Shown piece after piece: positions 13,912 to 50,699 of a DNA stretch of 64,000 nt. The stretch comes from Diplonema papillatum. Its lineage: Eukaryota > Euglenozoa > Diplonemea > Diplonemida > Diplonemidae. The stretch covers positions 124,001 through 188,000 of the forward strand of contig JAPJBO010000398.1 of assembly GCA_030068145.1 (NCBI GenBank). Reading direction: 5' to 3'. Under the pieces are notes generated by a model. It searched no databases. It was not told the DNA's origin and saw only the letters and a program-made list of their open reading frames with translations. Position 1 is the stretch's first letter. Every line of letters begins with the position of its first letter. Both the position numbers and the translations under genes were made by a program.

Positions 13912-14041
13912 GCCAGGGAGGGGGGTCCTGCTTTCCTTTCCCGACCCGAGCCCCTGCGGTGGAGACTTTTCCTCTCAAGAAATACGCACGTGCGGACAGG
14001 GATTATCCTGCATGGTTAAAAAAATGATTTCTTCACCAAAG

Positions 14042-24284: not shown

Positions 24285-25096
24285 CTTTTTGGTCTTTTTC
24301 TGGCGGCGCGTTTTTCTCTTTGTTCTTTGAGTGTTGGGGGGGCGGGGGGATGGGGTTGCCCCGCCCCGGCGCTCGCACGGTCCTGTGGTGGCTTTAGGCG
24401 TTAGGTTTGCATTCGGTAGGCAACGCTGCACCGGCCAAACTCGAGGGGGGGGGGGGGTCGTTGCACTGGATCTGGAATCGAACACCTTCTCGTGCCCAAC
24501 AACGTTTACGTTGTCGCTTGCAAGGTAAGCCGACATCGCGGATCGACACCGTGGATCAAGTTTTCAGACTGGTTTTGTTCGTGCAATTTGACCTGCACGC
24601 GTGCAGGTCAAACCGCTGCCAACGTTCCTTTTTAGCTGTATTATGCATTTTAAGAAGGCAGCTGGCTATCGCTAAAAGGAACCTTTTTTCGGCCCATAAT
24701 CTCCCAAAACTGCACGTATGACTATTTTTCTGTCCGATGATTCTGTCAGGAAACTTCCACCATTTCACCTGGTAGAAAGCACCTGATGTGGGCCCTATCG
24801 AGATCGTTTATCTCCACCAGTTACCATAGACATCTTCCTCGATGCAGAACTTGTTCATGCATACAGGAAGAACGCGGATTCCCATAGAATTCGCCTCGAC
24901 TGCGGGTCGACCCGCAACGCTTAGAGGCGCAGAGCACCAAAAAGTGAATGAAACTGGCCACTGCCTCAGTAGGGCCTGTGGGAGGTGGCCCAGTCGCAGG
25001 CAGCGCGCCGCATGCCCGCAAAGAGCCAAACGGGATTGACCAAGAAGGCGAGGAACAGGTGTAAACTGCCATCGCTCACCGACTTTAGCTCGGCTC
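24285..25096. other. Upstream region of AP-4 mu copy B
   Basis: Contains G-runs at 24337-24350 and 24446-24458 and the palindrome at 24587-24612. No exon is recognised. Confidence 0.4.
24587..24612. promoter_or_regulatory. Perfect 26-bp palindrome upstream of AP-4 mu copy B
   Basis: Each half-site reads TTTGACCTGCACG, and the two halves are exact reverse complements with no spacer. It lies about 300 bp upstream of the copy B start codon. It may be a binding site for a dimeric regulator or a hairpin; which one is not shown by the sequence. Confidence 0.45.
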
Positions 25097-31100: not shown

Positions 31101-34100
31101 CTACCCAGGCCAGACTGGATCGAGGAACAAACTCGACAAAAGTAGACATCCAGAGGTGCCAGAGGCTATCGTCGCTTGAGATCTGCCGTGATCAATCGGT
31201 TGGCCGCCTCCGCGGCGGCGCAACAGACGCGTTCCATCTGCTGTGACGTAGACAGGAGTGTGCATAGTGCGTTGCTCAGGGTAGTCGAAGGCCTGACAAT
31301 CAGACTAATGCAACAAATTGGATGGTGACACTCCGAACAGCCTCCCTGGCCCTGGCCCACGCCTGATGCCGCAACCCCTTAACCCGGGCGGCGGCGCTTT
31401 GGCATGAGCCAGGAACCTCAAGGGGAGCAGCGCGAGAGGCATCTTCCACGCTTCAAAGGCCCACACACTAATGCAACAAATTTATAATACTTTTGTTGAC
31501 CTCGGATCGCGGCGACCGTAACTGCTGGCTGCAGTATCTTTTGTATACTTTCAATGAAGGTCGTGGAGGTGGCGTGAGCATACCAGCATCTGACCACACG
31601 GATACAAGTCAGAAACGATGGTCAGCTTCGCACCTGACGGGACCATGGGGAGCAGGATGTCGTTGATGGCGAAGTCCGCCATGGCACCTGCCGCCTCAAA
31701 GTCGGACGGTAGAATGTCGGTCGAGTCAGGGCTGTCAGCCCTCACCTGCGCTCTGCCGCAAATGTACAGGAACAGCGAGTTGCCCGGCAGTGCGTCTTCC
31801 ACCAGCCAACTCAGCGCCGTTTGGATGTTGGCGTACGTTGGCTGCTTGTCGGGCGCCGTCGTCTCGTCGCTGAGGCACAGGAACTTCCCGAAGAAGCCCT
31901 GCTCTGTCAAGTATGACTTCATCTTCAGAACGTTCTGCGCGGGAGGGTAAAAGAGCTGAGTAAAGACGAGGAACTATCAGGGCCGACGTGCTGCATAGCC
32001 CCACACAAGAGAGGATGCATTTTACCAGCAGCCGGACCTACCCTTCCAGCCTACAAGAGCCCTTGACACAACAAACACCAGAGAAGTATAGATTACGTTC
32101 GCAGAGCAGAGCTGGCCAAAGACCGTATGAAGTGCTGCTTCACGAGGAGATTAGGTGAGTGACGCCTCTTGCGAACTGCGGGGATGTGAATCAGGGGGGA
32201 CGGAACCTGATTGCACGTTAATTTCCCCTCTCCGAAGAATCGAAAATTCTGCCCATTGCGGCTGCAACTTCTTTCGTGTTGCTTTCTTACCAGGAAAGGA
32301 AACACGTAGAAAGAAGGTCGCCAGTTTCGCCACCGAGCTAGCGGCGTGCGTGCTTCGTGATTTGTGCGAACCTTTCGGTGTGTACGGCAGTAGCATACCT
32401 TTGGGCCATCGGGCATTTCATACATGGAGTCTGTGTAGCCGACGCCGATCAGCAACGCCCGTGAGGCGCCGTAGATGGGTTCGGGCGATATCTCTTGCAC
32501 GGGCCCCGCCGGCTCTCCCGTTTCGAACAAGTCGTCTTCGGGTTCGTCGCGCAGGTCTCGCACAATGCGCATGCCGTCTCCGGCCGGAGACCCGGGGGCG
32601 GGCATCCTCGTCCAATCCACCGTGTTCGGAATCCCGAGCCGAGTGTCGCGAATGAACGGGTCCACCTTAGCCGCTCTGTTTCGGTTGGTTGGTTGTGCAG
32701 TGCGTGGTTATGCAGTGCGTGATTATGCAGTGCGTGGTTATGCAGTGCGTGGTTATGCAGTGCGTGGTTATGCAGTGCGTGGTTATGCAGTGCGTGGCTA
32801 TGCAGTGCGTGATTATGCAGTGCGTGGTTATGCAGTGCGTGGTTATGCAGTGCGTGGTTTTGCAGTGCGTGGCTATGCAGTGCGTGGTTTTGCAGTGCGT
32901 GGCTATGCAGTGCGTGATTATGCAGTGCGTGGTTATGCAGTGCGTGGTTTTGCAGTGCGTGGCTATGCAGTGCGTGGTTATGCAGTGCGTGGTTATGCAG
33001 TGCGTGGTTTTGCAGTGCGTGGCTATGCAGTGCGTGGTTATGCAGTGCGTGGTTATGCAGTGCGTGGTTATGCAGTGCGTGGCTATGCAGTGCGTGGTTG
33101 TGCAGTGCGTGGTTATGCAGTGCGTGGCTATGCAGTGCGTGGTTGTGCAGTGCGTGGTTATGCAGTGCGTGGCTATGCAGTGCGTGGTTGTGCAGTGCGT
33201 GGTTATGCAGTGCGTGGCTATGCAGTGCGTGGTTGTGCAGTGCGTGGTTATGCAGTGCGTGGCTATGCAGTGCGTGGTTGTGCAGTGCGTGGTTATGCAG
33301 TGCGTGGCTATGCAGTGCGTGGTTGTGCAGTGCGTGGTTATGCAGTGCGTGGCTATGCAGTGCGTGATTATGCAGTGCGTGATTATGCAGTGCGTGGTTA
33401 TGCAGTGCGTGGTTATGCAGTGCATGGTTAAGCAGTGCGTGGTTATGCAGTGCGTGGCTATGCAGTGCGTGGTTGTGCAGTGCGTGGTTATGCAGTGCGT
33501 GGCTATGCAGTGCGTGGTTGTGCAGTGCGTGGTTTTGCAGTGCGTGGCTATGCAGTGCGTGATTATGCAGTGCGTGATTATGCAGTGCGTGGTTATGCAG
33601 TGCGTGGTTATGCAGTGCATGGTTAAGCAGTGCGTGGTTATGCAGTGCATGGTTAAGCAGTGCGTGGTTATGCAGTGCGTGGTTATGCAGTGCATGGTTA
33701 AGCAGTGCGTGGTTATGCAGTGCGTGGTTATGCAGTGCATGGTTAAGCAGTGCGTGGTTATGCAGCACGCATTTTTCCCGAAGATCGTTTGAAATTCGTG
33801 GAAAACACATGGAAACAATCGTGCTGTGTTCGGCGATAGAAATCCCGGAGGAGGCAACGTGCTGAAGCCGACGCGAAACACAGGTAAATCTGGGTTCGGT
33901 GGCGGGTGTAAGCGTTCAACAAAAGAGGGGGGGAAAGAGAATGCGTATCCGCTCCATTCCAACCTATACATGTTGGCAGTCTCATACCGCTGCATTTGCG
34001 CCATTCGAACAGGATCCATTCGACTGTCGCCGACGAAGTCGTTGTATGCTGCCATGAAGTCCTGTGTGAGTTGCCGGGGCTCAAGGTACTGATCCACCAA

Positions 34101-37100
34101 TTCGTGCCTCAAACACAGCGTGAACACCTCTGTCTAGGGCCTGGGACGTGGCTCGGCGGCGCCATTCACTCGCACCGTCAGCCAAGACTAGAGCACATAG
34201 ACTAGTCACGTGACGAAGTACAATAAGGGTCTCTCGCAGCAACCGTTCGCCGTTCAAAGGTAGACGAGGGTATCGTACAAAGAAGCGGTGCCCGCATACG
34301 TTCATTCCGAGATCTTGGGCGTTGGCATAAAATTGTCCCACCGCGTTGCGTCTGATTTCGGCACCGCTCTGTTTTTTTTAGGTGTTCGGCTGCAAACTCT
34401 CCTCAAAGGGCTTCGCAGCCACGATCAATAATTCCAATAACAAACCCAGCTCAGACGAGGATTCAACAACGCGTTGTGAAGGGCTCGAGGGTACGAGTGA
34501 ACTGACTGAAGGGTCAACTTCAGGGCATGCAAAGCTCGAGTCGATGGTAGCCAGGGCCTGTACCCCGTCCGCTCAACCATGCGGCTGACCGTCGTGTACA
34601 GACACGCCAAACCACAAGGTACGCCATGCCTTGATGCTTCTCTGAGCCACTTGCCCTGTAGGCCCGTGGCTCTCAAGTGGCCCTACGAAGCCTGTAGGGA
34701 GAGAGAGGAGAGAACACATAAAACAAGTCAAAGGGTACCGTCAGGTGGGCCCCCACCGTCAGGTGGGCCAGGCTAGCTACGGGGTGGCTCCCTAGTCCCA
34801 GGGCCCCTCCCCTCCCACCTATATGTGTTCTCGCTGGCATCGCTACCGCGCTGAGAATTCCGAGAGAGAGAGAGCAACGAGCGAGAGTCATCTGGCAACG
34901 ACGCGCCGACCTCCTTGCTCCCGAGTGCAACACCTCCACCTCCAATCTTCTCCGCGCCCGAACACATGCAGCAGGCTTTCCTCGGTACACTCGTGCTCAC
35001 ACAACGAAGGGGAGGTGCCTTGAGGGGCTGGTACGGAAGAAATGTGAAATCGCGGTTTTGCCTACTACTAGTAGAGGCTTTTCGTATGAGCTATGTTTGT
35101 GTCTATGTTTTCATTCGTCTTCTTAACCATGGTTAAGTGCGCAAATGGTGTCAGCCGAAGAAATGCGTAGTTTTGTTTTATTCTTTTACTTGTTAGTTGT
35201 CGACAACTTGTTTTGTGTTGAGGTGTCATTCAGATGTAAATCTAAAGCCGCCCACGTCAAATTTTGTTAAGCATTGAGTTCTTTTAAGTACATGAACCAC
35301 ATGGATTAGCATGCACTGTGTCGCCGCTTAAGGTTACTTTATGACGTCGTCACCTGTCATTGCGTCGTCAAGGTCGAGTACTTGTGGCGCCAGGGGCGCT
35401 GGGCTTTCTTGCGGTTCTGGAGATTGCGTGGGGGGGCACAGGTGCGGACAGGCTTGCACGTTTTTCACTCTCGAGGGCACTGGAGTGCTTGGGGACGTCG
35501 GACGTTTCTGGTAGCTGCTTGCTTTAAGGGCCTTCTTCTTTTTTCGTTGCACCCCTGACTCGGGTGTGGTCGCCTTCGCCTTCTTCCGCTTGCGGCCGGC
35601 GATCGGGCTCTCCTTCGGGGTGCCGAGCACCCTCTTCTTCAACGCTGGTCGTTCGCCGGTCCCTGGCGTTGGTGGCGGCCTCTTGGCCGCCCGTCCGGTC
35701 GTCGCCGTCTTCTGCTTCACCACGGCGGGCGGTGCCTGCGCCGCGCGCTTTCCCGCCGGTGTTTCTCGTTGTACGCCCACCTGGGTGGGTGAGAGGGGTC
35801 TCTTCTTCTTTTTGCTGTGTCCGGGGGTTGCCGGGGCGTTCGGTTCGTTGGGTTGGTGGTGGCCGCGGCGGCAGCACGCTGCCGGTCTCCTCTGCGTCAA
35901 CGTAGGGAGCCTCCTGCATTCCTGGCAGGTTCCTCTGCCATGCGTGCGGCAGGCATGATGCCCGCTGCGGCAGCACGCCGCCGCCGTCTTGCACTCGCCG
36001 CATTTCGTCGTGCTGTGCTCCACGCACACCGCGATCGGCTGCCCATCGTCAGCGTGGTGATGGTGCCGACAGCACATCTCTACCGTGGGCACGTCCCTTC
36101 GGACGAGTGCTCGACACGCCTCACACTTCCCCTTGTGGTGGGTCGCGCAGGTGACGAGCGCTTTCTCTACTCCGACACCCGGCATATGCACGGGGTCGGG
36201 GTGCAGCTGTGGTGGGGCAGGCAGGGCCCACCTCGCCGCTCTCTCGGCCGTCCAGTCCGGGTACGTCGGGAACTGCGTCCCTACATCGCTTCCCTTCACC
36301 TGCTCTTCGAGGATCGTCCCCGTGTGTGCCTCGCGAAAGCGGGGCCTGGGCCGCACCCCCGATATCCCCGTGATGCCCATGAACGACAGCGACGTCGTCG
36401 GGCATACTCTCTCGCCTCGCTCGCAACTCCCCAGCCCTTGCTGTGTCGCCAGCTTGTCCAACGCGCTGATCATGCAGCGCAGGACGTTTCCTCGCTCCCT
36501 CACCCCCTTCGGTGCATTCTCGTGCAGCGGTATGCTGAGGCCTGAAAAGAGTTCAAAGTCGATGGCAAGCTCTAGCATTGACGCCTGCCCGTTCTCGGTC
36601 CACTCCATGTCTGACAGCCACGCTACCAACGCATAAAACGTCGGTAGCCCCCAGGCCTTGTTCCGCTCCCACGCCCATGCCGGGGCAATCCGCGCAAAGG
36701 GGTGGTCGAGCTTCTCGGCAGGCATCGCATCCGCTCTCGACCAGGGGGTCGTGGGGTTCCTGGCTACCCAGCCTCGTGCTTCGAGCCCTGCCCGCTCCGC
36801 AAGGATTTCAGCCATCATCTCCTGGAGCCGCCTCGAGAAGTGGGCATTCTCGGGTACTACCACTCCGTGTTCCAGCGTGCATCTGGGCCAGTCGGCGCGG
36901 TTGGCCGCCATCAGCTCGGCATGTGCCTCTCGTCGCCGTATGTGCGAGTACGCTCCGCAGTCCCAGAATACGTGTTTCTCGTCCTCGGTGTCGCCGCTTC
37001 CACAGTGCTTGCAGCTGGGCGCCTGCGGCTCAGCTCCGGCCTGTCTCATCCGCGACGTGAACTCAGCCGTGTTCACTCCTCCCGCCAACGCTACACGTAT

Positions 37101-40100
37101 AAGCCTCGCGGTGTGCGCGGGACATTCACGCATCCTCCAGAAGGAGTTCGTCCGCTCCAAGTCGGCTCTCTGTACACCCTCAAATCCCGGCCGCCTCGCT
37201 ACCAGACGGGACCACGTCTTCGCCCTCAAATCCGCCCTCACTTCATGCCCCCTCTTCGAGGGTGTCGAGGCTATCGGGTCAAATATTGCACCATTCCTCA
37301 GCGTGCGAGACAGGGGCCCTGGTCCCCATACGTGTCCACACTCCTCCATGCTCTTCATCGCCAGTCCAACTGGCCCCAGGGGTAGGTCCTCCTCGGCGTA
37401 CCTTCCCCGGATGCTCTCCATCAGAGGCAGAAGTCGTGGCAACCTCTCGCACGCCGCGTAGAACGCCGTCGTCACCCTATATGCTAGGCATGTACTGGGG
37501 TCCGTCAGGTGGCCCTTCTCCTGAAAATTTAGGACCATCTCCCTCGCGCGCTTTGGGTTGGACCCACCCCAGATCAGTCCCATCACCGACGTCGTCAGCC
37601 GTTTCATTGCCACCTTCGACACCGGCGCGAAAGAGCAGCCTGACAGCGCCGCCGGCAGCACATTCGACTGTACAATCCGGACCCGCTTCTCGTACCGGAA
37701 CGGCGCATGGCGGAGGCCTTCCGCCAGGGCAGCCGCCTTCTCCACCCTCTCCGAGTCGGACCTTTCTGTCCTATTCTTCGCCGTCGAGACTAGGGCCCCC
37801 AGGCACGTGACAGATTTGCCAAACCGCAGCAGCGCATCCACGCTGCGGAGTCTGAGCGTCGACTGATGCCTACGTCTCGTCGAGAAGGCGACCGTTTTCT
37901 GGAGGTTCAGCTCCATTCCGGTGAGCGTGCAGAACTCGTCTACCACGTCCACCCCCTTTTGCAGGGCGGCCTCCGACAGCCGCGATAGCAGCGTGGCATC
38001 GTCCGCGTACGACTTTGGGCTCACCCCCTCCGCTTCTTTCTTGACCGCCTTCATCACTACCGACAGCAGGGCATTGATGAGGATGACGGATACAGGGCAC
38101 CCTTGAAGGATACCATTGGTCACACTAAACTCCCTGCCCACCCCTAGAGGCAGCTTGAAGCGTCTCGCGAGCAGTCTGTAGATCGCCCTCAGCGGCTTGA
38201 GAACCCGATTGTGCAACCCTAAGTCCCCGGCCAGGCGCAGCACTATCTCTCGCGGGACCATGTCGAAACATTTCCGGAAGTCCAGCGCCACCCCGTAGAG
38301 CGGCTCTCCATCTAGCAAGGCGTCCTCCATCTCGAGCCCTATCTCCATCAGGACGTCCTCGATACGGTGACCCGGTCGAAAGCCCTTCTGTCCTTCTTCG
38401 ATCCACTTCTCCTGCCACAGGACTATGTCCGCAAGCCTGCGGCACGCCCATAGGCGGTACACAGCGGACGTGACGGTTATTGGCCTCGTGTGCAGCGGGT
38501 CTTGGCTCTCATCCTTCGGCACCATCGACACCAGGGCAGTTGTCATGCTCGCCGGCCAAACCCCAGTCACTTCGACCAGGTTCATGACATCCGCTAGCGC
38601 ATTCAGCAGGGGAAGCGGCAACTCCCGCAGTTCAGCCATGCGCCAGCCATCCACGCCTGACGCGCTTTTCTTCGGCTTCTTCCTTAGCAGAGTCCGCAGC
38701 TCCTCCCCCGTGATCGTCCCGGGTTCCATCAAGTGTGTGTCGATGTGCTCCTGGAACCGATCCCGAAACGGTCCGTACTCCGGCTCTGGCCGGTCCTTGT
38801 ATTTACGCAGGATAGCGTCCCACGCAGTGTGCAACACCTCGTCCATCTCGTCCACATTTGCAGTCATCTTCGCTCCGGTGCGCAACACACCCGACGGCTC
38901 AGCGCGACCGGCGCAGACGGTCGCTAGACATCGTCTGCTCGCGTCCGCCCTCTCGTTAAGCTTGTCTCGGTACTTCGTAAACCTGGCCGCAGATCCTTCC
39001 CTTCCGAGCCTACTCGTCTCTTCCCGCAACGCTGTGAGCAGCTGCTTCGCCTTCTCATGATCCGGAAACCCCCCTGCGCCTTGGTCGCCCACCATGCACG
39101 CTTGTGCCAGCCGCTTGCAGTTCTGCCAGCAGAGGGACACCTCATGTGGAACAGCTTCCGGCCCGCGACGTTGCGCGAGGTAGCTGCAGATGCGTTCCAT
39201 CCGGTGGATGGCCTTTCTAAGCCGTAGCTGCCTGCTGTTCGCTGCCCCCGACCCGTCGGTCGCAGTGCCCGCCGTGACACAGACCCTCCTCGGCAATGTC
39301 TTCATCCCCCGGCCGGTACCCCTTCCTCTCTCTTCCACAGGGACGGCGAATGCATCCTGCAAGTACCGCTCACTGACCCGTGACCACTCGAGCCAGGCCT
39401 CTTCCACCCGCTGCGCCGCCAATCGTTCCGCGAATTCGGAGTTGGCCAGTCTCTGTACGGCTTCCCTGTCGGCTTCTGCTTCCGAGAGGTCCCACTTGGA
39501 CCCCCCCTCTGTCGGGATCTCCCGCGGCACCTTAAATCGCCACACGCTTTGGCGCAGCGCTGCAATATCCAGGGTCACTGTCACGAGCCGGTGTCCCGGT
39601 ACGTTCACCGCGGTGGTGACGCATTGACGGAATGCACACGCCGCTATGCGGTTGAGGAGTATGCGGTCGATCCTCGTGCCTGACGTCCGGGCGCTGGTAA
39701 AGGTCGGTGGCGGAGGCGTGTTCCCGGTGCGCGCATGGTGCAGTTCCGCTGCGTCGGACCATCCGTTCCTAAGTGCCTTCCGCAGAACAGGGGACCGATC
39801 TTCTTCCGTGTTGAGGTCTCCCATCACCAGTATGGGGACGTCGCCGAGGCTGTCTGCCGCCGCAAAGAGGACCTTCTCCAGCATGTCCTCACGTTCCTCG
39901 TTCTCCGCCCTCCCGTTTCCTGATGGGCAGTAGACATTGAACACGTGCACGAAGGTGCTGCCGGTCCCTGTTGCGACTACAGTATGGCTTACCCGGTCCG
40001 GGGACCGTAACGCCACGTGCGAGAGCGCTGCCAACGTGTCGTACGCCGGTATCGGCCTCTGTACTAGAGTGCAGAGTCCCCCGTTCGCAGCGTTCGTCGT

Positions 40101-43100
40101 CGAGCGACTACCGGAGCTTCTACAGAGTCTCCCGGGAGGTGGCGGACCCCAGTGGCAGCACCAATTCCGTAGGTATTCCTCCGCCTGTGCCCGTTTGCAT
40201 CGAAGGAGTGTGACCTCCTGGCAGCAAAGAAGGTCGGCTTCCACCGCGTTAACCGCTACTATGTACTGCAGCATGCTGGTCACGTTGAGCGTCGCGAACT
40301 TCATCTCCGTGCGGCCGGGACCAGGGTTCTGTTCGACGTCCCCAGCTGTTAACAGCCGCTCTCGTGCAGATCCTCTGACTGATTCTTCTGTTCTTTTACT
40401 GTTACATAAATGCGTAGGGTTGGACTGTTGATGGGGGGGATGGGTGAGTGACTGTGGGGGGGGTGGGGGGGGCATTGTGGGTGGATCCAGCGTACCTTGT
40501 TCTCCTCTGGTGGGGGAGGAGCAGCGGGCCCTTCCCTCGTGCACAGCTCTGTAGGTGAGCGAGACCCTGTCGTGTGTGACATCACCGGGACGGATCCCGT
40601 GTGTCCACAGGTTCCTGGCCTCGCCCTCCATGTGGCACAGAGTGCCGGCTGGCAGCGGGGTTCTCACTCTTTGGGTCCCCCTCTCCCACTCCATGACCGT
40701 GTCACTCAGTAGCGAAACAGTCGCAACCCTCGGTCCAAGTTCTTGCTGGTCTTTATGGGGGTTTATCCCCACTCCCTTCCGGTACCAGTTGGCCAGCAAC
40801 TGGTCCGGTTCCCACCCCAGACGGTCACGTATGACATCCGCAGCTTCTCTCAGGGGCCCCTCGGGGATCCCCCGCTCCAGTTTGACCGGGGGTCCGCCCT
40901 GTCGATAGGCGTGCCCCCACTGCTGGGTTTCCCTGCCATGCCCTCCCCCCAGCCTTCCCCAGGGGGCTTCCGGTCTGAGCTCGGGGACCCGGCTCAGCCT
41001 CTCCAGGAGGTCCCGAGGGATCGTCTGGAAGCTGAGCCCGGGAATGGGTCCATCCTCCCTGCTTCGGGGGGGCTTGCTCCCGGGTCTTTGCCCCTCGCCG
41101 TAAGTCGGCCGCGGATGTTGGTCATTGTGGGGGGTTTGTTTGTGCGCAATGTCGGGCCCTCGGGGTAAAACTCCCGGACGACTGAGGCCTGGCGCGTCGA
41201 GAGAGGGGGAGAAAGAAGAAGAAGAGGGTCTGCCGCCCCCTTCGCGCATTGCTGCGTGATCGAACTGCCTAGTAGCGTTGCTAGGACTCGGCAGCCCGAA
41301 CGAGGGCCTCGGTCCTCCGGTGGCCCGGGGATCCTGATGCAGTCAGCCACTGCCAGCCTTCTCCCTGGTGCGGTAGCATTCGTGGCACACTCTGGCACCA
41401 CACGCGCACTTCCTCTGCAGCGTGTTCTTCCCCTTCCCTCCGTTGCAGCGGCTGCACTTCCAGGCCACCTTCGTCTTCTCCACGTCATCGCCCCAGTTGT
41501 GGACGTGCGCATCGACCTGCATCTCGCCTTCCGCACTTCCCGCTTGTTAAGCATTGAGTTCTTTTAAGTACATGAACCACACGGATTAACATGCACTGCC
41601 TTGAAAGTCAGGTTATCGGATGACGTCGTCACCTGCCATTGCGTCGTCAAGGTCGAGCATTTGTGGAGCTAGCGGGGTTTGGCTTTCTTGCGATTCCAGA
41701 GACTGAGTCGGCGAGTACGAGGGCGGGCACGTGTGCCCGTTTTTGACTTTCGAGGGCATTGGCGTGCCCGTGGTCCCCGGTCGTTTCTGAGAGCTGCTTG
41801 CCCTCGGAACCTTCTTCTTCCTTCGATGCACCCCTGACTCGGGGGTGGTCGCCTTCGTCTTCTTCCGCTTGCGGCCGGCGATCGGGCCTTCCTTCGGGGT
41901 GCCAAGCACCCTCTTCTTCAGCGCTGGTCGTTCGCTGGTTCCTGGCGTTGGTGGCGGCCTCTTGGTCGCCCGTCCGGTTGCCGCCGTCTCCTTTTTCGTT
42001 GCCGCGAGCGGCGCTCGCGCCGCTCGCTTTCCTAATGGCGTTTCCCGCTGTACACCCACCTGGGTGGGTGAGGAGGGCCTCTTCTTCTTGTTGCGTCCGG
42101 GGGTTCGGCTTGTTGGACTGGTGGTGGCCGCGGCTGCAACATGCCGCCGGTCGCCTCTGCGTCAGCGTAGGGAGCCTTTTGCACTCTTGGCAGGTTCCTC
42201 TGCCATGCGTGCGGCAGGCATGATGCCCGCTGCGGCAACACGCCGCCGCCGTCTTGCACTCGCCGCACTTCGTCGTGCTGTGCTCTGTGCACACCGCGAT
42301 CGGCTGCCCATCGTTCGCGTGGTGATGGTGCCGGCAGCACATCTCTACTCCCTTCGGACGAGTGCTCTGCACGCCTCACACTTCCCTTTGTGATGGGTCG
42401 CCCACGTGACGAGTGCCTTCTCTATATCGACTCCCGGCATATGCACGGGGTCTGGGTGCAGTTGTGGTGGTGCAGGCAGGGCCCACCTCGCCGCTTTCCC
42501 GTGCAGCGGCATGCTGAGGCCCGAGAAGAGTTCAAAGTCGATCGCAAGCTCCAGCATTGACGCCTGCCCGTTCTCGGTCCATTGCATGTACGCTACCAAC
42601 GCATAAAACGTCGGTAGTCCCCAGGTCTTATTCCGTTCCCACGTCCATGCCGGGGCAATCCGCGCGAAGGGGTGGTCAAATTTCTCGGCAGGCATCGCAT
42701 TCGCTCTCGACCAGGGGGTCGTGGGGTTCCTGGCCACCCAGCCACGTGCTTCGAGCCCAGCCCGTTCCGCAAGGATTTCAGCCATCATCTCCTGGAGCCG
42801 CCTCGAGAATTGGGCATTCTCGGGTACTACCACACCGTGTTCCAGCGTGCATCTGGGCCAGTCGGCCCGGTTGGCTGCCATCAGCTCGGCATGTGCCTCT
42901 CGTCGCCGTATGTGCGAGTACGCTCCGCAGTCCCAGAATACGTGTTTCTCGTCCTCGGTGTCGCCGCTTCCACAGTGCTTGCAGCTGGGCGCCTGCGGCT
43001 CAGCTCCGGCCTGCCTCATCCGCGACGTGTACTCAGCCGTGTTCACCCCCCCCGCCAACGCTACACGTATAAGCCTCGCGGTGTGCGCGGGACATTCACG

Positions 43101-46100: not shown

Positions 46101-49100
46101 GTGGTGGCAGACCCCAGTGGCAGCACCATTTCCGCAGGTATTCCTCCGCCTGCACCCGTTTGCACGGAAGGAGTGTCACCTCCTGGCAGCAGAGAAGATC
46201 CGCTTCCACCGCGTCGGCCGCTGGGAGATACTGTAGTAGGTTGGTTACGTTTAACGTCGCGAACCTCATCTCCGCGCGGCCGGGACCAGGGTTTTGTTCG
46301 ACGTCCCCCGCGGTTATCAGCCGCTGTCTTGCTGATTCTTTGATTGATTGTAGAGTTCTTTGGTGATGAAGCAAAAGTGTCCGTGGCGCGGGGCTGGACT
46401 GATGTTGGGGGGGTGCAGTGGATGCCTGAGGGCTGGGCGGGGGGGGTATGGGAGTTTCTTGCGGGGTGTCCCGGCCTTGCAAACTTTGGGAGGCGGCCTC
46501 GCGCACGGCCCTGTAGGTCAGCGAGACCCGGTCGCGTGCGACATCATCGGGACGAATCCCGTGTGTCCACAGGTTCCTGGCCTCGCCTTCCATGTGGCAC
46601 AGTGTGCCGACCGGCAGAGGGGTTCTCACTCTCCGGCTCCCCCTCTCCCATTCCATGACCGTGTCGCTCAAGAGCGATATGGTCGCTACCCTCGGACCCA
46701 GTTCTCTCTGGTCTTTGTGGGGGTTGATCCCCACTCCCCTCCGGTACCAGTTGGCCAGCAACTGGTCCGGTTCCCACCCAAGGCGGTCACGTATGAGATC
46801 CGCCGCTTCTTTCAGGGGCCCCTCGGGGATACCCCGTTCCAGTCTGATCGGGGGTTCACCTAGTCGATAGGCGTGCCCCCACTGCTGGGTTTCCCTGCTG
46901 TGTCCACCCCCCAGCCTTCCCCATGGGGCTTCCGGGTTGAGCTCGGGTGCTCGGCTCAGTCTATCCAGAAGATCCCGAGGGATCGCCTGGAAACTTAGCC
47001 CCGGGATGGGTCCCTCCACCCTGGCGGGGGGGCCCTCGTTGCAAGTTGGCCGGGCACACTGGCTATTGTAGGGGGATTGTTTGTGCGCAAAACCGGGCCC
47101 TCGGGGTATCACTCCCGGGCGATTGAGGCCAGGCGCGCCGTGAGAGAGAGGGAGGGGAAAAGAAGAGGAGCAGGAATTCTCTTTTTCCGTCTCTGCGTGA
47201 TCGAACTGCCTAGCAGGGGTGCTAGGACTCGGCAGCCCGAACGAGGGCCTCGCGCGCAGGGCAACCCGTAATGGGCTGGCGGGGCCACTGGCGCCGGGTG
47301 CGGGCTGTGGAGGTAGTCAGCTCGTGCAAGTCTTGCACGCGCTGACGTCGCAGCCCTCGCATTCCAAGCGAAGCTGACCCTTCGCCTTCTTCTTCCTACA
47401 CACGCCGCAGGTGTAGCCGGCTGCGGCCTTCGTGGGGGTCCCGAAGGCGTGGACGTGCTCTGCACCGTCCATCCGGGCGTCGCTTCCCGCGGGAGCCGGC
47501 CCGTCCCCTGCCGGCTCCGGCGTCTTCCTCTTCTTCTGCGCTGCCGCGTCCGCTGGCGGGGCCGCCGGCGGGGCCGCTGGCGGGGCCGCTGGTGGGGCCG
47601 CTGGCGGGGCCGCTGGTGGGGCCGCTGGCGGGGCCGCTGGCGGGGCCGCTGGCGGGGCCGCTGGTGGGGCCGCTGGCGGGGCTGCTGGCTGGCGGGGCTG
47701 CTGGCGGGCCGCTGGCGGGGCCGCTGGCGGGGCCGCCGGTGGGGCTGCTGGCTGCGGCTCGTCTTCCTCCGGCGCCGGCAGCCGCATCCGCCGCTTCCCG
47801 CTGGGGCTGGCAGCGAGCCGCCTGCGCCGCTCCCTCGGCATCTCCCCTCCGTCGAAGGGATTCACCCGGAGGTCGGGTGCCTCATCCCGCTGCAGCACGC
47901 GGAACGGGGGGTCGGTGGCCGACGTCACGACGCAGACCCGCACCCCACCTCGCAGGAACGACGTGACGACGTCTGCCTGCCAGCCGGCCTGCCGCAGGAC
48001 GTGCTCCACGTCCGCCTCGTGCTCGCGTGGCGCCGCGCCCATGAGCAGGAAACGCGGCTTCGATTCGAGGGGGGCAGCGGCGTGTTCGCCGGCCGCCGCA
48101 CGCACCTCTTCCAGCGCGGCGTCGCTGCGTGCGCGTACGAGGAGGCGTTTGCCGGCGAGCACGAGACCGGCGGCCGCCCCGCCTGCCCGCTTCGCCACTT
48201 CCAGGGCGACCGCCCTCGTGGCCCCCTTCTGCAGGGCGACCACCGGCATGCTGTCCCGGCACGCCTTCTCCGTCGACCGCCAGAAGCAGCCATCCCGACC
48301 GGAGCTGGCCAGGATCTCGTCGGCATGGGCGCGGGGCACCCGCACGACCAGCTCGCGCCGCCCCTGCTGCGACGACACGCCCCACATGGTGTCGTCGCGG
48401 ACACGTATGTCCATCTTTAGGGCCGCCCTGACGGCCCTTCGGCATAGGCGTGTCAGCGCCGTGCGGGGGTCCTTCTCCACGCAAGACCACGTCTCCTCCG
48501 ACGCGTGTTTGCGGGCCACGACGAAGGCCAGCACCGTCGTGGCAGCGGTCGGCTTAACCGCGCCGACGGGCATTCTCTGCACCGTCACCTGCCCCCGCTG
48601 GCGCACCGGCTCACCGCCCGTCCACAGGTACATCTCTTGTACCCTTCCGCCCACCATCAGCACGGAGCCCCGGCACGCGTCGCCGAAGGCCTCACGGCAC
48701 AGCACGCCGAGGCGCACCCGCTTCCCGTCGCGCTCCGCGACGTCCACCGCATCCGCAGCGGGTCCCTTCGCTTCCTCTGCTGCGGCGGCGCTGGGGGCGA
48801 CCCAGAGCCAGCTCCGACCGCCTCGAAGTTGGGTTCTGGGAGGACCGGCGCGTCCCAGTCGGCGGCGTCGATCTCGCCGGGCGGCGGGGGCCGCCTGGTC
48901 ACGTCCGCCCAGGTGGGCGCGTACCCTTGCCGGGGCCGTTGGGGTTGCTGCTGCTGCGGTTGCTGCTGGTGTTGCTGCTGTTGCTGTTGGTGTTGCTGTT
49001 GCTGTTGCGGTTGTCGTTGCGGCTGTCGCTGCGGTTGCTGCTGCTGCTGCTGCGGTCGCTGCTGTTGCTGCTTCGGTTGCTGCTGCTGCTGTTGCTGTTT

Positions 49101-49170
49101 CGGTTGCTGCTGCTGCTGCTGCCGCTGCTGCTGTTGCTGCTTCGGTTGCTGCTGCTGCTGTCTCTGCCGC

Positions 49171-49241
<71 letters not shown>

Positions 49242-50699
49242 CTTCTGCCTTGGCGGTTGCTGCGCCGGCTTGCCGCTCCGCGCTTCGATCCGACGCCTGA
49301 GCAGCGTCGTTGCAACGTCGATGATGCCGTAAACGGCATCCAGCTCGTCGAGGGCGGCGTGCTCTGCCATCCCCCGCGCCTCCTGGATCAGGACGTTGAT
49401 CCTGTCCATCGCTTCCGTTTGGGTGAGCAGTGGGCAGCTCGTGTTCTTTAAGCGGGTGGGTACCGCTGTTGTGTTAAGGGGGTGTTTGTCCTGGATGTTG
49501 TCCGGGCGCACTTTACCGGCCGCGTGAGCAGCCAATAAAGTACAGAAACTGTAGCTTTTAAATCGTTGGTTGTTAAGCAGCGGCTGCCAAAACTTGCCGT
49601 GACACCTATGATCAAAGTAAGTAGGAAAGGAGAAAGGTTGCTTAAAAAAAGGAAATGGGGGTAGGTGATATTTTTTCGACCCTCGTAGCTCGCTGGGTCA
49701 GGCGCGCCAGGTAGGTGCTGGGCTAATTTCGGTCTGGGCTTGGGCGAAACACAGAAGGTGTCCGGAATGCGTAACCGGAAGAGGGGGAGCACACACCAGG
49801 TTTTCATCGAGCATAGCCTGGGCCGCTTTGACAAGCTCCCTGTTCTCAACCTCGGCGACGATAGCGGCAGGGTCGAGGTTCCTGGGCGCTTGCTGCGGAG
49901 CGCCCCAGTCCGACCTGCCCCCCGGTCTCTCGCCGGGCGGCGTCCGCGGGGGGCTGATGTCCACCTTCTCAGGCGACCGGTACTGGAACGGGTCCCCGCC
50001 ACCACCGGGTTGCCCCACGAGCCGCCTCAGTTGCTCTCCATCCAGCCGCGACAAGTCCGCTTGGGTGAGGCCGGCCGACGAAGGACCCGCGTTGTAGCCG
50101 CTGTAGTTGCCCGGTGTAGATGCGTACCTGTCGATGACGCGTTTGCCCAGGAATGGGTCCAAAGCCTCGAGGAGAGGGTCGGTGTCTGCCTGCAGCGACA
50201 CGAGGGCGTTGACGTCGATGTGGTTGGCCAGGTTGGTTTGATACCTCTGGACGTTGCTCGTCCGGGCCTGCGGCCCGGGGGCCCTGGGCGGGATGATCTC
50301 GTTGGCGGCCATGGCTGGGCCGTACGGACCCCTCGTCCGGAGGGATTCGACGGGCAGAGGGTAGCTGCTGAGCTGCGGCATCGCCTGGAGAGGAACCTGC
50401 GGCACGTTGGTGAATCCGGAGGTGGGGGCTGCCAGGGACCGTTTCCGGCCGGGCTGGCGCTGGATGGACGCCGGGGCCGAGTCGGGCAGACCGGTGCTGT
50501 CGCCTGACTTGCTGCTTTTCCGCTGCGGGCGGTCTGGTTGTGTAGGCCCCGCAGGCGCGGCCGGCGGCGCGCTCTGGCTCGCACTGCTCTGCCTCCTGCT
50601 CGGGCCGCCGCGCGACGGGCCGCCGGGGCCCGCGGCGGACGGCTTCGCGCTGACCGGATCACTGCTCATCTCCTTCTGCGGGTCTCCGCGCGCAGACAT
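28117..50699 (-). CDS. Metacaspase-like protein with catalytic dyad replaced, eight exons
   Basis: Proposed exons: 50699-49797, 34368-34210, 34127-33988, 32675-32399, 31934-31584, 30472-30155, 29815-29603, 28686-28117. All joins keep phase and use GT-AG (several donors GTATG), giving about 976 aa. Residues 1-300 are a Pro/Gly/Ser-rich prodomain. The caspase-like p20 fold follows (SRALLIGVGYTDS, then PTYANIQTALSWLVEDALPGNSLFLY, GAKLTIVSDLYPCGQMLDLPYTM). Where metacaspases have SGHG this has CGRA (Arg554); where they have D-x-CHSG it has DLYPCG (Tyr604). Both catalytic residues are therefore gone. A p10-like part (VVHIFGKREDV, FKDLLIGLRRLL) and a charged coiled coil follow. A likely role is as a non-proteolytic regulator, as for known pseudo-metacaspases. 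The exon 2 limits, the exon 3 start and the last exon are least certain; an alternative end is at 29431. Confidence 0.68.
29862..29998 (+). repeat. Dispersed repeat family A, copy in an intron
   Basis: Begins AACGTGCTTGGAATGG and ends GACAGCGGTGTGAG, matching 10678-10806 and the partial copy at 63952. It lies between exons 6 and 7 of the metacaspase-like gene. Confidence 0.8.
30655..31075 (+). repeat. Intronic tandem repeat, 54-bp unit with shorter derivatives
   Basis: The first units are 54 bp (TTGGCCCACATCAAG, CCGCATCAAGGC, TCTAAAGCCCAGTCCCTTC). Later ones lack the central block or carry ATGACCCAACTCGAGG instead. About nine units lie in intron 5 of the metacaspase-like gene. The period divisible by three leaves open frames on both strands that are not genes. 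Confidence 0.85.
31304..31482 (-). repeat. Short interspersed element S1, copy 2
   Basis: Bounded by the exact 16-bp direct repeat ACTAATGCAACAAATT (31304-31319 and 31467-31482). The interior matches the reverse complement of 5969-6149. It lies in intron 5 of the metacaspase-like gene. Confidence 0.78.
32690..33765. repeat. 15-bp minisatellite, about 72 units, in intron 3
   Basis: Unit TATGCAGTGCGTGGT with frequent variants (GGCTATG, GGTTGTG, GATTATG, GGTTTTG). Variant units occur in higher-order patterns, for example alternating TTATG / CTATG / TTGTG from about 33060 to 33360. The period of five codons leaves long open frames on both strands (His-Asn-His-Ala-Leu type), which I regard as by-products. 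Splice sites on both sides place it wholly within an intron of the metacaspase-like gene. Confidence 0.95.
34560..34690 (-). repeat. Dispersed repeat H, copy 2
   Basis: Reverse complement matches 22245-22410 (GAGCCACGGGCCTAC, AAGTGGCT, AAGCATCAAGGC). It lies in intron 1 of the metacaspase-like gene. Confidence 0.7.
34710..34832. repeat. Possible small inverted-repeat element
   Basis: The ends GAGAACACATA and TATGTGTTCTC are reverse complements 123 bp apart. The interior has two copies of CCGTCAGGTGGGC. No target duplication is evident, so this may be chance. Confidence 0.35.
35042..35165 (+). repeat. Dispersed repeat family B, copy 2
   Basis: Contains GGTTTTGCCT, AGAGGCTTTTCGT, TTTGTGTCTATG, CATTCGTCTTC and GGTGTCAGCCGAAG in the same order as 12665-12775. 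Confidence 0.65.
35264..35273. repeat. Target-site repeat of LINE-A, site 1
   Basis: TTGTTAAGCA, found identically at 41544-41553 and 49571-49580. It marks the 3' boundary (minus strand) of the downstream LINE-A copy. Confidence 0.75.
35334..41249 (-). CDS. LINE-A ORF2: AlkB-like domain, 2A, AP endonuclease, RT, zinc arrays
   Basis: Uninterrupted, 1971 aa, ATG at 41249. Residues about 70-236 are an AlkB-like Fe(II)/2-oxoglutarate dioxygenase: metal ligands His165-x-Asp167 (INPHKD) and His217 (LWTHGI), and 2OG-binding R228-x5-R234 (RVSLTYR). After a Pro-rich linker comes a 2A motif, RLLTAGDVEQNPGP, with the predicted skip between Gly310 and Pro311. An APE-type endonuclease follows (TLNV, CQE, NVYCPSG, GDLN, TRIDRILL, PGHRLV). 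The reverse transcriptase has FRPGHRIEDV, VALDFRKCFD, GILQGCPVS and YADDA (from residue 1081). A zinc knuckle, CKHC-x10-H-x4-C, lies near 1413. A Cys/His-rich array of three related units spans about 1700-1797, followed by a Lys/Arg/Pro-rich tail and an acidic end. The protein would nick DNA and reverse-transcribe the element RNA in the nucleus; the oxygenase would be released separately. Confidence 0.93.
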   Translation of the reverse strand: MREGGGRPSSSSFSPSLDAPGLSRPGVLPRGPDIAHKQTPHNDQHPRPTYGEGQRPGSKPPRSREDGPIPGLSFQTIPRDLLERLSRVPELRPEAPWGRLGGGHGRETQQWGHAYRQGGPPVKLERGIPEGPLREAADVIRDRLGWEPDQLLANWYRKGVGINPHKDQQELGPRVATVSLLSDTVMEWERGTQRVRTPLPAGTLCHMEGEARNLWTHGIRPGDVTHDRVSLTYRAVHEGRARCSSPTRGEQGTLDPPTMPPPPPPQSLTHPPHQQSNPTHLCNSKRTEESVRGSARERLLTAGDVEQNPGPGRTEMKFATLNVTSMLQYIVAVNAVEADLLCCQEVTLLRCKRAQAEEYLRNWCCHWGPPPPGRLCRSSGSRSTTNAANGGLCTLVQRPIPAYDTLAALSHVALRSPDRVSHTVVATGTGSTFVHVFNVYCPSGNGRAENEEREDMLEKVLFAAADSLGDVPILVMGDLNTEEDRSPVLRKALRNGWSDAAELHHARTGNTPPPPTFTSARTSGTRIDRILLNRIAACAFRQCVTTAVNVPGHRLVTVTLDIAALRQSVWRFKVPREIPTEGGSKWDLSEAEADREAVQRLANSEFAERLAAQRVEEAWLEWSRVSERYLQDAFAVPVEERGRGTGRGMKTLPRRVCVTAGTATDGSGAANSRQLRLRKAIHRMERICSYLAQRRGPEAVPHEVSLCWQNCKRLAQACMVGDQGAGGFPDHEKAKQLLTALREETSRLGREGSAARFTKYRDKLNERADASRRCLATVCAGRAEPSGVLRTGAKMTANVDEMDEVLHTAWDAILRKYKDRPEPEYGPFRDRFQEHIDTHLMEPGTITGEELRTLLRKKPKKSASGVDGWRMAELRELPLPLLNALADVMNLVEVTGVWPASMTTALVSMVPKDESQDPLHTRPITVTSAVYRLWACRRLADIVLWQEKWIEEGQKGFRPGHRIEDVLMEIGLEMEDALLDGEPLYGVALDFRKCFDMVPREIVLRLAGDLGLHNRVLKPLRAIYRLLARRFKLPLGVGREFSVTNGILQGCPVSVILINALLSVVMKAVKKEAEGVSPKSYADDATLLSRLSEAALQKGVDVVDEFCTLTGMELNLQKTVAFSTRRRHQSTLRLRSVDALLRFGKSVTCLGALVSTAKNRTERSDSERVEKAAALAEGLRHAPFRYEKRVRIVQSNVLPAALSGCSFAPVSKVAMKRLTTSVMGLIWGGSNPKRAREMVLNFQEKGHLTDPSTCLAYRVTTAFYAACERLPRLLPLMESIRGRYAEEDLPLGPVGLAMKSMEECGHVWGPGPLSRTLRNGAIFDPIASTPSKRGHEVRADLRAKTWSRLVARRPGFEGVQRADLERTNSFWRMRECPAHTARLIRVALAGGVNTAEFTSRMRQAGAEPQAPSCKHCGSGDTEDEKHVFWDCGAYSHIRRREAHAELMAANRADWPRCTLEHGVVVPENAHFSRRLQEMMAEILAERAGLEARGWVARNPTTPWSRADAMPAEKLDHPFARIAPAWAWERNKAWGLPTFYALVAWLSDMEWTENGQASMLELAIDFELFSGLSIPLHENAPKGVRERGNVLRCMISALDKLATQQGLGSCERGERVCPTTSLSFMGITGISGVRPRPRFREAHTGTILEEQVKGSDVGTQFPTYPDWTAERAARWALPAPPQLHPDPVHMPGVGVEKALVTCATHHKGKCEACRALVRRDVPTVEMCCRHHHHADDGQPIAVCVEHSTTKCGECKTAAACCRSGHHACRTHGRGTCQECRRLPTLTQRRPAACCRRGHHQPNEPNAPATPGHSKKKKRPLSPTQVGVQRETPAGKRAAQAPPAVVKQKTATTGRAAKRPPPTPGTGERPALKKRVLGTPKESPIAGRKRKKAKATTPESGVQRKKKKALKASSYQKRPTSPSTPVPSRVKNVQACPHLCPPTQSPEPQESPAPLAPQVLDLDDAMTGDDVIK
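41258..41311 (-). other. Conserved intercistronic hairpin, LINE-A copy 1
   Basis: Between ORF1 and ORF2. On the minus strand CTGCC...CCTAG and CTAGG...GCAG can pair around a short loop. The block is conserved in copy 2 (47199-47253) although neighbouring sequence has diverged. Confidence 0.5.
41343..41543 (-). pseudogene. LINE-A copy 1 ORF1 remnant, zinc-finger C-terminus
   Basis: The last 67 codons of ORF1, open from the truncation point to the TGA at 41343. They encode HVHNWGDDVEK followed by a finger of the form CSRC-x-GGKGK...CACGARVCHEC. The equivalent end of ORF1 in copy 2 has CGVC...CEGC...CKTC. These fingers probably bind nucleic acid. Confidence 0.7.
41544..41553. repeat. Target-site repeat of LINE-A, site 2
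   Basis: TTGTTAAGCA at the junction of the two LINE-A copies, identical to 35264-35273 and 49571-49580. Confidence 0.75.
41613..47112 (-). pseudogene. LINE-A copy 2 ORF2, interrupted
   Basis: Same domain order as copy 1. The segment 47112-45691 holds the AlkB-like domain (INPHKD, LWTHGI, RVSLTYR all kept), the 2A motif (RLITAGDVEQNPGP) and most of the endonuclease, including GDLN. The segment 45578-42345 holds the endonuclease end, reverse transcriptase (YADDA) and zinc knuckle. The Cys/His array and basic tail lie in other frames between 42372 and 41613. The ATG used by copy 1 is absent at the equivalent place, so the start is unclear. Relative to copy 1 a stretch of about 84 residues is missing just before the ARWALPAPPQLHPDP block. 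Retention of all AlkB and 2A key residues in a decayed copy shows they belong to the family, not to one odd copy. Confidence 0.88.
47199..47253 (-). other. Conserved intercistronic hairpin, LINE-A copy 2
   Basis: Minus strand CCTAGCA-CCCC-TGCTAGG is a perfect stem-loop, set within the same conserved block as 41258-41311. The loop and upper stem differ between copies while pairing is largely kept. Confidence 0.55.
47317..49409 (-). pseudogene. LINE-A ORF1: Gln-rich, Pro/Ala-rich zinc-finger protein, one frame change
   Basis: Begins at the ATG at 49409 (MDRINVLIQEARGMAEHAALDELDAV, a likely helical segment). A long Gln-rich tract follows (about 49260-48940), then GYAPTWADVTRRPPPP. Near 48797, in a run of five G on the plus strand, the reading frame shifts; the rest runs from there to the TGA at 47317. 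The second part has a conserved-looking core (KHASEETWSCVEKDPRTAL, ELVVRVPRAHADEIL), a Pro/Ala tract from a GC-rich minisatellite (47540-47760) and a C-terminal finger, CGVCRKKKAKG...CEGC...CKTC. Its role is probably RNA binding and RNP formation, as for other LINE ORF1 products, although no RRM or classical gag-type knuckle is visible. The indel could also be a sequencing error in the homopolymer. Confidence 0.72.
47540..47760. repeat. GC-rich minisatellite within LINE-A ORF1
   Basis: GGGGCCGCTGGC-type 12-15 bp units encoding Pro-Pro-Ala-Ala on the minus strand. Confidence 0.9.
49571..49580. repeat. Target-site repeat of LINE-A, site 3
   Basis: TTGTTAAGCA just outside the 5' end of LINE-A copy 2, identical to 35264-35273 and 41544-41553. 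Confidence 0.72.

Follow-up and report, generated by a model that had tools for sequence, protein, structure and literature searches.

Transposons with an accessory 2-oxoglutarate (2OG) oxygenase are already known. A Ty3/Gypsy long terminal repeat (LTR) retrotransposon of the orchid Phalaenopsis is reported to have acquired an AlkB-type 2OG oxygenase, termed ALKBH5-like, carried in an additional open reading frame (ORF) and active in vitro (PMC9289625), and TET/JBP dioxygenases are reported across several DNA-transposon lineages of fungi, including Helitrons (PMC12730594). A 2A motif, defined as D(V/I)ExNPGP (PMC4981915), is reported from L1Tc of Trypanosoma cruzi and other long interspersed nuclear elements (LINEs) of the apurinic/apyrimidinic endonuclease (APE) type (PMC4981915, PMC12846837). 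Here we describe a LINE family of Diplonema papillatum that joins an AlkB domain to a 2A motif, found in a stretch of 64,000 nucleotides (GenBank assembly GCA_030068145.1, contig JAPJBO010000398.1, positions 124,001 to 188,000 of the forward strand; hereafter the window). By its sequence the family is an APE-type non-LTR retrotransposon whose long ORF encodes AlkB, 2A, APE and reverse transcriptase (RT) in that order.

In the window, this ORF (ORF2 of copy 1, subfamily A1) encodes 1971 amino acids at 35334..41249, as a preliminary description of this DNA had stated; its strand, which that description did not give, is minus, the plus-strand translation of the same span containing many stops, and the upper limit of the open frame is 41342. 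Its parts follow in the order AlkB, linker, 2A, APE, RT and C-terminal region. Three Pfam domains were found in this order, each above its curated cut-off: 2OG-FeII_Oxy_2 (PF13532; 5.7e-13, 50 bits against a cut-off of 31.2) for the AlkB domain at 40533..41042 (residues 70–239), Exo_endo_phos (PF03372; 1.3e-10) for the APE domain at 39639..40274 (residues 326–537), and RVT_1 (PF00078; 2e-19) for the RT domain at 37881..38495 (residues 919–1123), all on the minus strand. The endonuclease and RT in one ORF, together with dispersed copies, confirm that the element is a LINE. The 2A/StopGo motif proposed earlier, RLLTAGDVEQNPGP, lies between oxygenase and endonuclease at 40317..40358 (minus strand, residues 298–311) and fits the published definition. 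The whole copy is 5'-truncated and occupies 35264..41543 on the minus strand; it begins at 41543 with the remaining end of an upstream ORF1 (41346..41543) and finishes with a 3' terminus, ...CTTAACAA, common to both copies in the window. INGI elements have been described with an RNase H domain (PMC12278014). No such domain follows the RT among the Pfam matches of the ORF up to an E value of 1, and the LINE was for this reason not assigned to the INGI/L1Tc clade.

The oxygenase is a member of the AlkB family, and the key residues named in the preliminary description (H165, D167, H217, R228 and R234) are correct; the HxD, H and R-x5-R residues, along with an N-x-Y motif, are invariant in all seven aligned AlkBs. 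A profile search of the PDB with the domain matched ALKBH8, 3, 6, 2, 5 and 7, NMAD-1 and AlkB, the best solved relative being ALKBH8 (E value 9.7e-22), which erases neither N6-methyladenosine (m6A) nor 5-methylcytosine (5mC). Neither an RNA recognition motif (RRM) nor a methyltransferase domain was found in the ORF by Pfam.

The second copy in the window, also on the minus strand, belongs to subfamily B and is decayed, as had been noted, with frame breaks near 45.7 kb and 42.35 kb in an ORF2 region that runs from 47316 to a 3' end at 41544, yet its AlkB domain (46495..47004) and 2A core, GDVEQNPGP (46282..46308), are intact. Its ORF1 (47320..49473; 718 amino acids as the length of the open frame) is gag-like by position and has a Cys-rich C terminus, and gave no match in a Pfam scan. 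At window positions 41543/41544 the 5'-truncated copy 1 abuts the 3' end of this copy of the other subfamily, head to tail, for which a template jump or an end-targeted insertion is possible.

Throughout the genome, a query that runs from AlkB through the linker and the 2A into the start of APE matched at all 138 places scored, a lower bound since 944 places were candidates, with 76–100% identity and no internal stop, which argues that the layout did not arise by chance; 36 of these places are 100% identical across the whole query. The core motif is GDVEQNPGP in subfamilies A1 and B and in the close 5'-truncated copy L030, and GDIEQNPGP in L029. An exact 39-mer from AlkB occurs at 181 places and an exact 32-mer from RT at 387, an excess that fits 5' truncation, as seen in copy 1 and L030, differing conservation of the two words being another possibility. 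At every base over 2841 bp, 20 of 29 other A1 loci equal copy 1, while the remaining nine match on shorter stretches or at 99.6–99.97%. The family is thus abundant and recently expanded in D. papillatum, the very high identity of its copies pointing to a recent burst, though some of that identity may be an effect of assembly given the caution of the genome paper on duplicated or collapsed repeats (PMC10161547). Deposited annotation has missed the AlkB part: one D. papillatum gene model matches the RT stretch of the window at 100% identity, model P0004 starts at a Met just past the 2A and so lacks AlkB, and those LINE models with this RT that were examined either begin somewhere downstream of the 2A or have no AlkB motif. 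A truncated fragment of the AlkB ORF (query residues 1–142, open frame 223) occurs four times on contig C1063 and five times on C1128, perhaps as part of a larger tandem or segmental repeat.

Codon comparisons between subfamilies indicate that AlkB is kept intact by purifying selection. The ratio of non-synonymous to synonymous substitution rates (dN/dS) was calculated by the Nei-Gojobori method, leaving out minus-strand alignment segments and any codon aligned to a stop or an X; of 163 AlkB codons, 162 were covered in B, 97 in L029 and 145 in L030, and two subfamily comparisons are informative. Between copy 1 and copy 2 the ratio for AlkB is 0.165 (95% confidence interval [CI] 0.094–0.29), with APE at 0.162, the middle region at 0.167, RT at 0.037 and the two C-terminal parts at 0.135 and 0.43; the AlkB-2A linker, by contrast, reaches 0.73 and the N-terminal part 0.82. 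Between copy 1 and L029 the values are 0.159 for AlkB, 0.160 for APE, 0.073 for RT and 0.41 for the linker. In this check, which the preliminary description had proposed, AlkB therefore lies near APE and not near 1. The stretch preceding the A1 ATG is too short to inform, with one synonymous and four non-synonymous changes in 20 codons.

In the fetched copies ORF1 lies upstream of the AlkB ORF and shares its frame, with one UGA between the two; this UGA is found on the minus strand at 41343..41345 in copy 1 in the A1 context UGA-CUG and at 47317..47319 in copy 2 in the context UGA-CUA. With a junction query of the form ORF1-X-AlkB (X at position 256), 82 of 1248 candidates were scored and 68 of 93 rows span the junction; in 62 of the 68 there is exactly one stop, a TGA, and in 67 at least one TGA. 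Of 30 A1 loci fetched, 27 include the junction, and every one of these reads TGACTG; a search by TGA pattern gave TGACTA at all 66 B-type places, 64 of them with in-frame spacing. The distance from TGA to an anchor differs between A and B by 33 bases, a multiple of three, a rule broken by 2 of the 66 B copies. Since A1 and B are 27% identical in ORF1 and 87% identical in AlkB, the junction persisted while ORF1 was exchanged or diverged quickly. In subfamily B the ORF2 frame has its first Met at residue 221, past the HxD motif at 200, so the AlkB of B has no AUG of its own, and in copy 2 itself Met is absent between UGA and HxD; 11 genome rows, including that of the window, score equally to a Met-free B stretch of 203 residues, and six of them have an open frame of at least 1900 amino acids. 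The single in-frame UGA and the lack of a Met before the B active site suggest that AlkB is probably produced chiefly through readthrough of the stop, as a fusion to ORF1. The earlier proposal that AlkB is released by the 2A accordingly holds for its C-terminal side, while on its N-terminal side the domain is in frame with ORF1 across the single UGA. Use of UGA as a sense codon is unlikely, the frame of 1971 codons being free of TGA. The predicted RNA fold after the UGA is inconsistent (z −1.07 in A1, −2.88 in B), and no stimulatory hairpin is claimed.

AlkB domains of the same clade as that of the LINE are also found in Helitrons. In locus L027, AlkB, Helitron_like_N (6.5e-38) and PIF1 (5.1e-42) were found by Pfam in one frame, and in L017 AlkB with Helitron_like_N (8.5e-38); the proteins with the N-terminal AlkB are at L017:2714-8017 and L027:2869-9936, and L018, L025 and L026 have the same protein start. 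On codon comparison the Helitron AlkBs look to be under constraint, with dN/dS of 0.149 for L017/L019 and 0.194 for L017/L025, the latter at a dS of 1.16, near saturation; the pair L025/L028, with no synonymous and two non-synonymous changes, is uninformative. Near-identical AlkB ORFs also stand at two further places, L023 and L024 (dN/dS 0.233 on 8 changes), where no Pfam transposase was found in the ORFs scanned. A D. papillatum protein, P0001, has an AlkB 74% identical to that of the LINE and elsewhere no significant similarity to it, with an OTU match below the Pfam cut-off and no RVT match. P0001 and P0003 represent an element-like multidomain protein with AlkB and this weak OTU match, in which RT-like (P0001) and recombinase-like (P0003) stretches were seen by eye only. 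In a midpoint-rooted tree of 13 sequences, three of whose host branches were flagged long, six element AlkBs group together apart from seven presumed host AlkBs, with support of 94/95, just below the starred level of the tool, and in 95% of 200 bootstrap trees. As to a host origin of the element AlkB, L021 (C129) is similar by eye, but the tree leaves it unplaced.

Searching long proteins with the AlkB part returned three homologues only, all from D. papillatum, and among 466 candidates of about 144–458 amino acids none outside Diplonema matched at E ≤ 0.01; both searches depend on shared 5-residue words, so that silence elsewhere does not amount to absence. PF13532 is listed in none of 75 RT relatives, some of which are truncated models of this same LINE family whose lack of AlkB is uninformative, and an NPGP motif is present in 14 of the 75. 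A loose AlkB motif in P0034, P0042, P0044 and P0069 falls in the last third of each protein and was taken as chance. Among proteins without AlkB, the predicted protein P0029 joins APE-RT to an ORF1-like part and carries two NPGP motifs, and P0041, P0054 and P0067 have an OTU domain and APE-RT in the same protein; the N-terminal modules of the LINE relatives seem exchangeable. The likeliest history is that AlkB was inserted between ORF1 and 2A of an ancestor with the layout ORF1-2A-APE-RT. A host-like gene model, P0002 (DIPPA_14024), ends at its C terminus in a segment of the LINE AlkB (89% identity), through either exon capture or an error of the model.

The layout, the conserved active site, the purifying selection and the in-frame UGA-CUR of several subfamilies are all read from the sequence. 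The best overall explanation, and one we consider reasonably probable, is a series of gag-like ORF1, leaky UGA, ALKBH8-like AlkB, 2A and APE-RT, in which a readthrough fusion would hold AlkB on the element ribonucleoprotein (RNP). The UGA would end translation for the majority of ribosomes, giving ORF1p, a minority would read through it to give ORF1p-AlkB, and skipping of the peptide bond at the 2A would yield APE-RT as a separate product, so that AlkB would be a minor C-terminal extension of ORF1p in an amount matched to the released APE-RT. Kept on the RNP by ORF1p, AlkB would oxidatively strip alkyl or methyl adducts from the single-stranded RNA template and cDNA of the element, so that RT could still read the template. 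What we infer here is that readthrough, skipping at the 2A and catalysis take place and, most of all, what the substrate is. Single-stranded element nucleic acid is our leading guess for the substrate, tentatively placed ahead of a silencing mark or tRNA, and is favored because such intermediates are common to LINEs and Helitrons. ALKBH8-type proteins of bacteria, protozoa and mimivirus are reported to repair DNA in vitro, mostly etheno adducts, one of them only in single-stranded DNA (PMC4051686). More broadly, and with some reservation, one AlkB domain may serve as a mobile accessory common to LINEs, Helitrons and an OTU-like-bearing element, repairing their exposed single-stranded nucleic acid, with UGA readthrough setting its dose in the LINE and the 2A parting it from the replicase, in a gag-eraser-pol arrangement.

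Several observations weigh against this explanation. The structure model of AlkB is poor (pLDDT, a predicted local confidence score, of 49.8), and Foldseek with it gave no match at E ≤ 0.001. The tested ALKBH8-type proteins are reported to lack repair of 1-methyladenine (m1A), with one very weak exception, and only two of four repaired 3-methylcytosine (PMC4051686). The dN/dS of AlkB in L030 is 0.59, with a CI of 0.17–2.5, from a copy too close to inform. At the junction, 5 of the 68 rows have extra stops and one, the C1288 copy, has none; two B-type copies, C34 and C2366, have a TGACTA spacing 8 bases shorter and out of frame, with one in-frame TAA; and the junction counts, coming from near-identical copies that are not independent, represent two or three lineages. 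Readthrough at UGA-CUAG is proven for mammals, at a level of as much as about 31% in human cells (PMC4132726), which speaks for the explanation, but the fit here ends at UGA-CUA, the next base in copy 2 being C, not G, and A1 having CUG. Finally, A1 has an AUG 32 codons past the UGA and so does not require readthrough. This last point favors separate translation of AlkB, by reinitiation or from a spliced-leader trans-spliced mRNA beginning at the A1 AUG, the in-frame UGA then being incidental; trans-splicing is listed for the host group (PMC10161547), and the start of deposited P0004 just past the 2A agrees with it. We regard separate translation as rather unlikely, since at least 11 subfamily B rows have no Met before HxD, the frame and UGA-CUR are retained despite the divergence of ORF1, and the A/B spacing, apart from the two B copies mentioned, differs by a multiple of three. 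That AlkB is a recently captured, non-functional passenger is very improbable: the recent burst leaves open frames inside one subfamily with little weight as evidence, as the 20 identical A1 loci illustrate, but the between-subfamily ratios for AlkB stand against 0.41–0.82 in the flanking linkers, and the Helitron ratios are similarly low.

The two remaining alternatives concern what AlkB acts upon. Removal of a host silencing mark (N6-methyladenine in DNA, m6A or m1A in RNA, or 5mC), as proposed for the orchid and fungal elements, draws on the genes for 5mC, base J and RNA interference reported in the D. papillatum genome (PMC10161547), on demethylation of m6A in vitro by the orchid AlkB (PMC9289625), and on the spread of TET/JBP in 11 fungal DNA-transposon lineages (PMC12730594). 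The profile of the present domain is, however, ALKBH8-like and neither ALKBH5- nor NMAD-1-like. We also know of no 5mC activity of AlkB enzymes in vivo, and consider this role, on balance, improbable. The ALKBH8 match would equally suit an action on host tRNA, by hydroxylation of wobble 5-methoxycarbonylmethyluridine, or on other host RNA, favoring translation of the element mRNA; the NCBI model of the related P0001 is named after an ALKBH8-type tRNA methyltransferase, and two protozoan ALKBH8s are reported to hydroxylate tRNA as well (PMC4051686). Against this stand the missing RRM and methyltransferase domains, the fusion to ORF1, which points to the RNP, and the presence of the same domain in Helitrons, and we think an RNA-directed role of this kind quite unlikely. 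To our knowledge Helitrons have no need for a special tRNA status.

Two further features of the window were observed. A tandem array at 32690–33765 repeats a 15-bp unit 72 times and is open in several reading frames, and two diverged copies of what may be an adaptor-complex mu-subunit gene lie at 12937–13974 and 23187–24563.

If the proposed explanation is correct, a nucleic-acid repair or eraser enzyme can come under selection within LINEs and can move between transposons of class I and class II, and it becomes testable whether transposition is limited by base adducts or methylation. The exact word from AlkB, at its 181 places, implies well over a hundred transposon AlkBs in the D. papillatum genome, and the in-frame UGA with the 2A would form a compact natural cassette for the expression of three products. 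The preliminary description knew of no LINE with both AlkB and 2A, and none was found in the open-access literature searched; the novelty is narrowed by the AlkB-bearing Gypsy element already described (PMC9289625). Judged by titles and abstract openings, that literature, with subscription papers and Repbase outside the search, contains no AlkB-bearing LINE or Helitron, and within it the gag-eraser-pol layout is likewise undescribed.

Among described systems, the ALKBH8-type proteins (PDB 3thp/3tht; PMC4051686) share the layout of N-x-Y, HxD, H and R-x5-R, but the LINE AlkB differs from ALKBH8 in sitting inside mobile-element polyproteins, with the accessory domains of ALKBH8 not found by Pfam. 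The fungal elements (PMC12730594) resemble the present ones in carrying a 2OG dioxygenase across several transposon lineages of one host group and differ in that their enzyme is TET/JBP, not AlkB. The 2A-bearing LINEs (PMC4981915, PMC12846837) have a like 2A motif, and the host of L1Tc belongs to the same phylum, Euglenozoa; the available text of these reports mentions no AlkB. They differ in that the 2A of L1Tc is near the N terminus. The murine leukemia virus (MLV) type expresses gag and pol by readthrough. MLV-type gag-pol and the UGA-CUAG readthrough genes (PMC4132726) are matched here by an in-frame UGA after a gag-like ORF, followed by C-U-A or C-U-G; unlike in those genes, the fourth base of CUAG is unmatched in both junctions read, and readthrough in the LINE is deduced from sequence. 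The closest parallel remains the orchid Gypsy element (PMC9289625), likewise a retrotransposon with an acquired AlkB-type 2OG oxygenase; unlike it, the element described here is an APE-type LINE whose AlkB is ALKBH8-like, lies in frame with ORF1 and 2A, and is common to Helitrons. What is unusual here is the spread of the oxygenase across transposon classes and the manner of its expression.

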